Both the position numbers and the translations under genes were made by a program. A model generated the notes under the pieces. The model was not told where the DNA came from. It saw nothing but the letters and a program-made list of their open reading frames with translations, and searched no databases. A DNA stretch of 64,000 nt. It comes from Leptospiraceae bacterium. GTDB lineage: Bacteria; Spirochaetota; Leptospiria; Leptospirales; Leptospiraceae. The stretch's first letter is position 1, and each line of letters starts with the position of its first letter. Positions 790 through 3,425 of the stretch are shown piece after piece. Where the stretch lies: the NCBI GenBank assembly GCA_947458405.1, contig CANGZW010000005.1:1-64000 (forward strand). Reading direction: 5' to 3'.

Positions 790-1188
790 ATGGATTCAAA
801 TCAGGAGACTTTACTAAACATCCTGAAAATACTCCAAGATATACAGGAAACACTAGATTCAAATCCATATGGTGTTTCCAATAATTATAAAATCGTACTT
901 TATTTGGTTCCAATCTTTGGAATTGTATTTGGCTCGGGGCTATTATTTTCTATTTTTTACTGGTGGCACAAGCAAAGAATAGAACTTATCCGAACTAATC
1001 TATATAAACCAATTGAATTTAACCTTAGGCTCTACTCCTTTTTTTTGGGACTATTGTTGACTTTCACCGGATTCGTGCTTTCAATGGTATTCATCATGGT
1101 CTTGGGAAACAGTCTCGCCATGTTAGGAGGGTTAATCCCATTAGCGGTCGGTCTCAGTCTTTTGACATTTTACAAGTTTCAGAAATAG
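790..1188 (+). CDS. small membrane protein, function unknown
   Basis: This protein of 132 residues starts directly after the stop of the gene before it. It has an N-terminal polar helix (about 1-35) and a membrane segment at about 37-60. A basic cytoplasmic loop containing WWHKQRIELIR follows, then two more hydrophobic segments at about 80-128. This arrangement resembles small DUF6249-type membrane proteins, but I do not recognise the family with certainty. The last part of the gene lies in the same region as the probable 5' end of the ECF sigma gene in another frame. The two are therefore likely translationally linked, and this protein could be part of the same envelope-stress circuit (inference). 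Confidence 0.65.
   Translation: MDSNQETLLNILKILQDIQETLDSNPYGVSNNYKIVLYLVPIFGIVFGSGLLFSIFYWWHKQRIELIRTNLYKPIEFNLRLYSFFLGLLLTFTGFVLSMVFIMVLGNSLAMLGGLIPLAVGLSLLTFYKFQK
1123..1188 (+). promoter_or_regulatory. candidate non-canonical start region of the ECF sigma gene
   Basis: A TTAGGAGG Shine-Dalgarno-like sequence lies at 1123-1130, followed nine bases later by an in-frame ATT at 1140. An in-frame ATA at 1185-1187 overlaps the TAG stop of the preceding gene. No ATG, GTG or TTG exists in this frame before 1275, although sigma region 2.1 clearly extends upstream. TTAGGAGG also encodes part of the previous protein, so it may be coincidental. Confidence 0.35.
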
Positions 1189-1274
1189 AACAAAAAACAC
1201 TTCTCTGCAACCCAGAGGACTGGAGCAATATTCAGTCTGTCCTTAAAGGAGATTATAATGCCTTTGAATTACTT

Positions 1275-1766
1275 ATGGATAAATACCAAGGAATGGTGTA
1301 TTCTGAAGCACTAAAATTCACAAAAAATCCAGATGAGGCAGAGGATATAACACAAGAGATATTCCTAAAAGCATTTGAGAGTTTATCTATTTTTAAAGGA
1401 CATTCAAAGTTTCCAACATGGTTGTATAAAATTGGAAAAAACATTGCCCTCTCCAAAGCAAGAAAAGAGAAAAATACCCCCATTGATTCACACCAAGAGT
1501 TCAATCCCAACCAGTACCAAGACAATAGATGGAGCCAAGTTACTTTAGAAATTGAAAATCTAGAAAATGAGATGAAACAAAAAGTTAGATCTTTAATAGC
1601 TAGGTTACCTTCAATTTATAAGAAACCTCTCGTTCTGTACTACTTTGAAAATATGTCTTACAAAGAAATTTCTGAACACTTAGATATTAAAATAAATACT
1701 CTTAAAAGCTACATTTTACGCGGTAAAGATTTAATGAAAAGTTGGATGAATCATGAAGAAAAATAG
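1275..1766 (+). CDS. RNA polymerase sigma factor, ECF (sigma-70) family
   Basis: The product directs RNA polymerase to a specific promoter set. Region 2 is clear: a DKYQGMVYSEALKFTKNPDEA stretch, then AEDITQEIFLKAF, which is the core-binding and -10 recognition helix. Region 4 is at about 95-155, with the helix-turn-helix YKEISEHLDIKINTLKSYILRG. The coordinates use the first ATG (163 residues), but this cuts off the start of region 2.1. In-frame upstream codons encode a typical beginning, including VLKGDYNAFELL, with no ATG, GTG or TTG. A start at the ATA of 1185, which overlaps the previous stop as ATAG, would give 193 residues, normal for ECF factors. The next gene overlaps by 14 bases and may encode its anti-sigma factor. 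Confidence 0.9.
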   Translation: MDKYQGMVYSEALKFTKNPDEAEDITQEIFLKAFESLSIFKGHSKFPTWLYKIGKNIALSKARKEKNTPIDSHQEFNPNQYQDNRWSQVTLEIENLENEMKQKVRSLIARLPSIYKKPLVLYYFENMSYKEISEHLDIKINTLKSYILRGKDLMKSWMNHEEK

Positions 1767-2076
1767 TCCATTTGAAAATTATAATATTTATGATAATAAT
1801 TCGAAAGCTCCCTCTTCGATTAAAAAAAAGATCAGTCATCAATTGATCCCTCTAAAACTCATAAAATATACTTTTGGAATTTTATTTTTTTTATTTTGTT
1901 CTCCACTTCTACTCTTATTTTCCAGACCTTTTGAAGATAAAGAAATTCTATCTTCTATTATTTTAACAGAGTCATTTGCATTTTTGATATTTGCCTTACT
2001 CTCAGGAATTATCTTATCTATAACAAAGAACCCTAGACTACAGGAATTAAAAAATCTATTTGGCTATACTGAATGA
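1753..2076 (+). CDS. small two-helix membrane protein, possible anti-sigma factor
   Basis: This protein of 107 residues overlaps the end of the sigma gene by 14 bases. A short cytoplasmic N-terminus of about 30 residues contains KAPSSIKKKISHQL, which resembles the start of small anti-sigma domains. Two hydrophobic segments follow, at about 38-57 and 68-90, and then a basic tail. Known membrane anti-sigma factors are encoded directly after their ECF sigma gene, so position and shape suggest that role. No zinc-binding HxxxCxxC (ZAS) motif is present, so it would be a minimal or different type. No sequence family was recognised; the role is inferred from context only. Confidence 0.6.
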   Translation: MKKNSPFENYNIYDNNSKAPSSIKKKISHQLIPLKLIKYTFGILFFLFCSPLLLLFSRPFEDKEILSSIILTESFAFLIFALLSGIILSITKNPRLQELKNLFGYTE

Positions 2077-2486
2077 TCCTAAAAACAAACTTTTCTTCAA
2101 CCTTTAAGAATATCACTATCTTATTAGTTTTAATTTTATGTAATACATTGCAGTCCCAAGAGAAAAGTATTAATCCAAAAGAATTATTAGAAATGGATTC
2201 TGATAAGGCTTTTGAAATAATAGGAAAGTTAAATAAGATACAGTCAGAAGAATTAATCACTCAAATTAGAGTAATTGCGAGAAATGAATACAAAGAAATA
2301 GATAAATTTTATTTATTAATTTCTCATCTGGAGACTATAAAAGCTATCGAAGAAGAAGAGAAAAAGTTACGTGATCTAAATACGGTATATGGATTAGGGT
2401 TATTTCTTTTTGTAGGACTTGTTGGATATAGTCTTTTTGCACAAAGAAAATCAATACAGGCAATCGAAGAACACTTAAAACAATAA
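2073..2486 (+). CDS. secreted or membrane-anchored helical protein, function unknown
   Basis: The start codon overlaps the previous stop as ATGA, which indicates translational coupling with the sigma/anti-sigma pair. The 137-residue product has an N-terminal hydrophobic segment (about 14-27) ending in LCNTLQSQ, which looks like a signal peptide. A polar helical middle contains EEEEKKLRDLN. A second hydrophobic helix at about 104-122 precedes a charged coiled tail. With signal peptide and C-terminal anchor it would expose a helical domain to the periplasm. No known domain was recognised. Coupling suggests it is a further component or a target of the ECF circuit (inference). Confidence 0.6.
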   Translation: MILKTNFSSTFKNITILLVLILCNTLQSQEKSINPKELLEMDSDKAFEIIGKLNKIQSEELITQIRVIARNEYKEIDKFYLLISHLETIKAIEEEEKKLRDLNTVYGLGLFLFVGLVGYSLFAQRKSIQAIEEHLKQ

Positions 2487-3425
2487 ATGAATCCTAATCT
2501 ATCTATTGATAACATTATAGGTCAGGAAATCCCTCTACAATATATTAGAAGGTATATTCAGGATTCATCAAAAATTCCTCCCCTCTTAATCTTCCATGGT
2601 CCCTCTGGAGTTGGAAAATGGTCACTCGCAGAAAGGTTTGTATATCAAGTCCTCTGTAAGAAAGGAAATGGTTGTTCTAATTGTGAGTCCTGCCGCTTAT
2701 TTATTCAAAATGAACATCCTGATTTTATTCAGTTTCCAATTGGAAAAAAAATTCTGATAGGTAGCGATGATGATAAAAAAACAGATGAATATTCTGTCCG
2801 CTGGCTACTTTCTAAAAGAATTTATTATACCCCTCATTTATCGCAATACAGAATCATACTTATCCCTGATGCGACTCTTTTTACGGATGAAGCTGAGTCG
2901 GCTCTCCTAAAAACCTTAGAAGAGCCACCCCTACATACTAAATTTATTTTTTTAACAGAAGATCTTTATAAATTAAAACAAACTATAATTTCAAGAGGAA
3001 CCTGTATTCCGTTTCAATATCTAAGTCAATCGTCCATAAATAAAATAAATACGTCGGGTGATGTTATAAATAAATATTTTGGAGGAAGTTTAAACCCAGT
3101 AAAAGCTCCCATTGAAGTATTACAATTTATTGAATCACAAGCAGTTGATTCCATCAGTGACAATATTCGTCTTTTGGAATTTGAAAACTGGATAAAAGGT
3201 TACAAAGACTCACATCCTGAATGGGAAAAGGATTTTTCTTATACACATTTTATAGATGCTGTATTACTGGTTTTATTATATGTCTATGAGTCATCAGAAC
3301 TACCTAATAAATATTATTATCAAGAAAAAATCCTGGAAGCCAAAGAATATCTCTATAAGGATATAACTAATCTTGAAAACTTTATCATAAGCAGACTCTT
3401 TATGCAACTAGCAAAAGATATATAG
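2487..3425 (+). CDS. holB: DNA polymerase III delta-prime subunit
   Basis: This AAA+ clamp-loader subunit (312 residues) would work with DnaX and HolA to load the sliding clamp on DNA. The P-loop is GPSGVGKW at 38-45; the usual Ser/Thr after the lysine is Trp, which fits the poor nucleotide use of delta-prime subunits. A zinc module is formed by C57, C63, C66 and C69. The sensor region ALLKTLEEPP lies at about 147-156 and IISRG at about 177, the SRC/SRG motif of clamp loaders. The start ATG directly follows the stop of the previous gene, so it is read from the same transcript. It meets the mrp gene tail to tail with no gap. Confidence 0.9.
   Translation: MNPNLSIDNIIGQEIPLQYIRRYIQDSSKIPPLLIFHGPSGVGKWSLAERFVYQVLCKKGNGCSNCESCRLFIQNEHPDFIQFPIGKKILIGSDDDKKTDEYSVRWLLSKRIYYTPHLSQYRIILIPDATLFTDEAESALLKTLEEPPLHTKFIFLTEDLYKLKQTIISRGTCIPFQYLSQSSINKINTSGDVINKYFGGSLNPVKAPIEVLQFIESQAVDSISDNIRLLEFENWIKGYKDSHPEWEKDFSYTHFIDAVLLVLLYVYESSELPNKYYYQEKILEAKEYLYKDITNLENFIISRLFMQLAKDI

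Follow-up and report, generated by a model that had tools for sequence, protein, structure and literature searches.

The window analysed here comprises 64,000 nucleotides (nts), positions 1–64,000 of the forward strand of contig CANGZW010000005.1 from Leptospiraceae bacterium GCA_947458405.1 (G000), and all coordinates below are positions of that window. On its + strand lie a gene for a small hydrophobic protein, hereafter d (790–1188), an ECF sigma factor gene whose stop ends at 1766, and two further genes, m1 (1753–2076) and m2 (2073–2486). Strong orthologues of the sigma factor occur in all seven other family genomes, with 42–61% identity over the matched part (61 genomes searched), and the gene order d, sigma, m1, m2 is kept in 8/8. 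These eight genomes (G000–G007) represent five genera, the seven relatives falling in four further genera. G005 and G006 are almost identical at the sigma locus, and the eight genomes share kinship, so that the counts given below are not independent.

The upstream partner d is a 132-residue DUF6249-like membrane protein, kept upstream of the sigma factor in every family genome, and the 3′ end of its gene holds the proposed sigma initiation site. Its match to Pfam PF19762 (DUF6249) scores 22.7 bits, under the cut-off of 33; three of its seven relatives lie above this value (33.2, 37.7, and 46.7 bits) and four below. A plasmid collection contained no match to the d protein, and the only mention of DUF6249 found in the literature is, by its title, a paper on bean kinases. 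Downstream, the start of m1 overlaps the sigma stop; m1 encodes a hydrophobic protein of 107 residues with no Pfam match above cut-off, and m2 one of 137 residues with hydrophobic stretches at its N- and C-termini. Both have homologues in 8/8 and are conserved partners of the sigma gene across the family. Across 1753–3425, sigma, m1, m2, and a gene that we take to be holB-like succeed one another with overlaps or without gaps. Because they overlap or abut, these genes may form a single operon that extends to a gene for a DNA polymerase subunit. G005 (L124) and G006 (L125) have, between m1 and m2, a convergent ORF of 380 residues whose beginning resembles a P-loop (GGPRQVGKTTL); G000, G001, G003, and G007 have none there.

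The sigma protein and its open frame

Read from an AUU codon at 1140, the sigma coding sequence (1140–1766) specifies 208 residues with Sigma70_r2 at residues 45–111 (1.6e-15) and Sigma70_r4_2 at residues 147–196 (1.3e-14). It scores 90.8 bits against the sigma70-ECF model TIGR02937 (cut-off 42.9), and its content of Sigma70 regions 2 and 4 only, within roughly 160–210 residues, is that by which ECF sigma factors are recognised. Solved RpoE, SigH, and SigW chains align from family profile position 22–29 to 206–207, the best-matching among them beginning at position 22–24. In a structure model (mean pLDDT 70.8, built from only eight sequences), residues 1–21 are of low confidence and lack secondary structure, while helices span residues 25–35 and 39–61. 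The AUU-initiated sigma factor would be a 208-residue protein whose first 21 residues or so form a short N-terminal tail, probably flexible.

The frame encoding this protein is open from 1029 to its stop at 1764–1766, and its first ATG, GTG, or TTG is the ATG at 1275–1277, directly preceded in frame by VLKGDYNAFELL and placed within the helix of region 2.1. A sequence-only reading of the window had asserted that no canonical start precedes 1275, and had proposed two near-cognate substitutes: ATA 1185–1187, which overlaps the TAG of the upstream ORF and would yield 193 residues, and ATT 1140–1142, nine bases after TTAGGAGG (1123–1130), which would yield 208. Reading and translating the frame bears out all three statements.

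The gap is not peculiar to one genome. Counted from the AUU, the first canonical codon appears at +135, +135, +135, +309, +153, +138, +138, and +66 nts in G000 to G007, in that order, leaving longest canonical-start ORFs of 163, 170, 166, 99, 150, 168, 168, and 192 residues. No canonical start is shared by the relatives, and all eight frames run past region 2 into d. Starting at the first canonical codon would cost the G003 protein 103 of its 202 residues, that is, half of it. Only G007 offers a canonical start that could serve, a TTG in the sigma frame at +66, at the beginning of the ECF fold, which no other genome shares. The finding that would have undone the earlier claim, an ordinary ATG in a corresponding position, occurs in none of the eight. 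Among the matches listed from these genomes, 15 other sigma-type matches served as controls: in 14 a canonical start lies a short way 5′ of the match, and the fifteenth (L163) is a broken frame. Sequencing error, also entertained in the sequence-only reading, is excluded as the cause, since the gene and its gap recur in the seven other family genomes, making eight independent genomes in all.

The AGGAGG–N9–ATT site within the d gene

What the eight genomes do share is a compact candidate initiation site nested in the 3′ end of the d gene. A Shine–Dalgarno (SD) sequence, AGGAGG (1125–1130, then G1131), lies within the Leu-Gly-Gly codons TTA GGA GGG of d and is followed, after 9 nts, by ATT (1140–1142), the proposed start codon; the whole of AGGAGG-N9-ATT (1125–1142) is invariant in 8/8. 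A spacing of 9 nts is at the long end of the range for SD sequences and start codons. Initiation here would make the d and sigma genes overlap by 49 nts (1140–1188), a length found in six of the eight genomes, the other two having 61. The pattern AGGAGGGKTARTYCCATT occurs once in each family genome, always in the corresponding position ahead of the sigma gene, and in 0/22 other genomes of the order; it was drawn up from the eight genomes themselves, so that its single copy and the 22 misses are the informative part.

Duplex energies point to the same codon. Calculated with anti-SD letters that we presume to apply, pairing at the AUU reaches −10.7 kcal/mol in all eight genomes and is strongest at this site only, no other near-cognate codon of the sigma frame being served by anything stronger than −7.4 kcal/mol in any genome. 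A 16S 3′ end with the anti-SD was found in four of the seven relatives; the search for an anti-SD match found none in G000, nor in G001, G003, and G006. Downstream of the SD, ATT is the only near-cognate codon fixed at one place in 8/8, and the next most widely shared, at +21 (6/8) and +27 (5/8), have weak SD pairing. The AGG codons that the genomes likewise have in common, at −15 and −12, are the SD itself. In several relatives, the SD and AUU are predicted to lie in a small hairpin (1118–1146), without covariation. An 8-pair version of it was rejected as a candidate element: it shows no compensatory change, and with 93.8% paired it does no better than shuffles at 92.7% (165/500).

Third bases of d codons, in TTA GGA GGG and in CCA, make up part of the SD and supply the first base of ATT. 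All four of these wobble positions (TTA, GGA, GGG, and CCA) are invariant, whereas among the other columns holding a conserved residue of four- or six-fold degeneracy 1 of 26 is (Fisher p 1.8e-4, a guide only because the genomes are related), and leaving out G006 gives 4/4 versus 1/27. The four columns had been fixed beforehand by the earlier claim, made on one genome. Mean third-base identity in d follows the same course, being 0.47 upstream, 0.92 from the SD to the ATT, and 0.62 beyond. As far as alignment can tell, conservation of the SD and ATT reflects selection, not chance.

Selection on the sigma frame itself has a different distribution. From the d stop to ATG 1275, it is under purifying selection, with pN/pS of 0.19–0.67 in eight pairs (0.19 for G005–G007 and 0.36–0.67 for the seven others). 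Inside the 49-nt overlap, protein-level constraint is absent, pN/pS being about 1–2.9, and a second calculation gave 1.74 there versus 2.15 further upstream. Protein comparison alone would therefore be compatible with initiation at any position as far as roughly codon 22; by the same values, the residues of the N-terminal tail are unconstrained, and the constraint is on the SD and the codon.

Together, the strong SD at a suitable distance and the conserved codon make the AUU start site well supported by comparison. It is very probable that translation of the sigma gene begins at AUU 1140 with the aid of this SD. The sigma factor would thereby be kept scarce compared with d, its membrane partner. 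The earlier proposal of AUA or AUU initiation thus holds for its second half: the AUU with its SD is invariant, while the codon at the AUA position is ATA in two genomes, GTA in five, and CTA in one.

Competing accounts of sigma synthesis

That variation weighs most directly on the idea that ribosomes terminating on d reinitiate at the codon overlapping its stop (ATA 1185 in the window), producing 193 residues. Coupling of this kind has parallels, since some related gene pairs outside the family start sigma on the stop codon of the preceding gene (ATGA in L011, L043, and L053), and ATAG is present in both G000 and G003. The six remaining family genomes, however, have the GTA and CTA codons just mentioned, ATA 1185 has no SD (0.0 and 1.5 kcal/mol), and a start there would leave the frozen AGGAGG and ATT unexplained. 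Neither conserved nor equipped with an SD, ATA 1185 is rejected as the start, and we consider reinitiation at the d stop very unlikely.

An equally improbable account dispenses with a separate sigma start altogether. Ribosomes would slip by −1 within d, or polymerase would slip on its template, and the product would be a membrane-anchored sigma fusion with AGGAGG acting as a stimulator, as in dnaX. The geometry invites such a proposal, the sigma frame being −1 relative to that of d with an SD-like element inside d, and a frameshift had also been offered as an alternative in the sequence-only reading. A slippery site common to the relatives is nevertheless lacking. Between the last sigma-frame stop and the d stop, no X_XXY_YYZ heptamer exists in G002, G003, G005, and G006; the heptamers of the other four genomes, at −35 to −101 nts, are not common to all. 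A programmed −1 frameshift of the dnaX type, which calls for a shared slippery heptamer, accordingly finds no counterpart across the eight genomes. Transcriptional slippage fares no better, as the longest homopolymer from −30 to the d stop measures 3–4 nts, and the d protein retains its own stop in 8/8.

Pausing offers a third account, in which AGGAGG slows ribosomes for membrane insertion of d and has no part in initiation, sigma starting instead at an unshared near-cognate codon. SD-like sequences within genes have indeed been proposed to cause pausing, a contested view. Pausing does not explain why an invariant ATT should stand at a fixed distance or why no alternative start is shared, and AGGAGG is missing at the same Gly-Gly in 17 of 18 upstream genes outside the family; we give this account scarcely any credence. 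Least probable of all is that sigma begins at an internal canonical codon, ATG 1275 or some other, the upstream homology being a relic: although it is the first canonical codon and the one a mechanical ORF list returns, ATG 1275 is residue 46 of the AUU form, where it would cut the model helix 39–61, the sequence upstream of it is under purifying selection, and it has no equivalent in G003 and G004, so it is rejected as the sole start.

Origin and possible meaning of the proposed AUU start

The AUU site can be compared with pairs in which a DUF6249-like gene likewise lies directly 5′ of an ECF sigma gene. This outgroup of 18 loci, mostly of the same order, class, and phylum, was drawn from the matches listed, among which an HMM of d matched beside sigma in 16 of 22 distant loci and 2 of 79 named loci (L040 excepted). 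The genus Leptospira had no match by name among the matches listed. Unlike the family genomes, all 18 offer sigma a canonical start close to the stop of the d gene: as ATGA overlapping it in L011, L043, and L053, and within about 45 nts in the others, L022 having a GTG that overlaps the d stop, read by eye in the sequence. At the Leu-Gly-Gly…Pro-Leu motif of the outgroup, AGGAGG occurs once (L017) and ATT once (L011), and both together in 0/18, versus 8/8 in the family. Because the outgroup pairs have a canonical start near the d stop and none combines AGGAGG with ATT, the nested AUU start looks derived. Most simply, it would be a state that arose in the family, built from codons that d needs anyway. 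L017 (G009) is the only outgroup d gene with AGGAGG at its Gly-Gly codons (TTA GGA GGT) and has no ATT downstream, possibly a precursor state.

We can sketch how such a site would work. The strong AGGAGG within the 3′ end of the d gene would capture a 30S subunit, and initiator tRNA would pair imperfectly with AUU 1140. From known biology, AUU would initiate at a small fraction of the rate of AUG and be disfavoured by IF3. Since AUU is weak and so disfavoured, the same mRNA would yield far less sigma factor than d, which may keep sigma off until needed. Ribosomes completing d would also pass over the site at which sigma starts, and in doing so may either favour or impede initiation there. Low sigma yield and IF3 control are what we infer by analogy, and the AUU start is most likely a built-in brake on the amount of sigma made.

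To our knowledge, this family is the second group known, after Streptomyces sigR, whose sigma genes have a conserved non-canonical start. The nearest precedent is indeed sigR. AUU and similar codons are described as inefficient starts that IF3 destabilises and that strong SDs accompany (literature including PMC5472188). As presented in the available portion of that source, sigR has an IF3-repressed GTC start that holds sigma below its anti-sigma factor, and in 2 of 34 species the start is GTT (PMC5472188). The likeness extends to the ECF type, to a conserved non-canonical start beside a strong, conserved SD (AGGAGGTG), and to a partner protein made in excess. The differences are that sigR starts with GTC rather than AUU and belongs to a different phylum, and that the predicted sigma start of the family lies inside the upstream partner gene. 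Two L. interrogans papers list ECF sigma factors in the portions available (PMC6941012; PMC12655853). No paper linking an ECF sigma factor with an AUU start codon was found in the literature, and titles and abstract openings held nothing on this sigma gene.

AUU starts are also known in genes for other proteins. Binns and Masters are said to have described the AUU start of pcnB. According to the accessible part of PMC5472188, both infC and pcnB of E. coli have AUU starts that limit translation, with IF3 control in infC; they resemble the family sigma gene in the codon and differ as other proteins. In S. aureus, cvfC1 (AUU) and ccpN (AUA) yield about 10% of the AUG level in poor medium, and they share with the family sigma gene a conserved non-canonical start with an extended SD sequence; they are not sigma factors, and the excerpted text describes no nesting in an upstream gene (PMC13009471). 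Closer in phylogeny, bbe22/pncA of Borrelia burgdorferi is a spirochaete gene whose AUU start was missed by annotation and has support from a crystal structure, though it is an enzyme gene on a plasmid (PMC13398362, in its available sections). When ATT replaced ATG in Listeria rsbW, it gave the lowest yield of three codons, as the part of PMC13068326 at hand reports.

A gene for IF3 was identified in 28 of 30 genomes from the order. A shared AUU start in infC of the family is ruled out: infC starts with ATG in 7/7 family genomes read, that is, seven of the eight with G004 left out, and this start gives no sign of IF3 autoregulation through AUU. The infC ATG often comes directly after TGA (GGAGAATGAATG; L147, L148, and L150–L154), the usual non-canonical start being unused.

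A bolder extension, which we rate as doubtful, is that sigma synthesis reads two inputs, the initiation state of the cell (the balance of IF3 and initiator tRNA) and the translation of the partner d. The Gly-Gly codons of d would then have become a ribosome-binding site, and translation of d could open or block it. If true, the fidelity of translation initiation would act as the switch for this sigma factor, an arrangement derived from an ordinary start.

Conserved AUU starts on record are few, and they escape gene finders. If sigma synthesis does begin at AUU 1140, the family would be a second, unrelated bacterial group in which a poor start codon keeps an ECF sigma factor low, the first being Streptomyces with its sigR, and two such groups would suggest a recurrent way of keeping a sigma factor below its partner. 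With an ordinary start apparently replaced by a nested weak one, selection for poor start codons would become testable on one gene pair.
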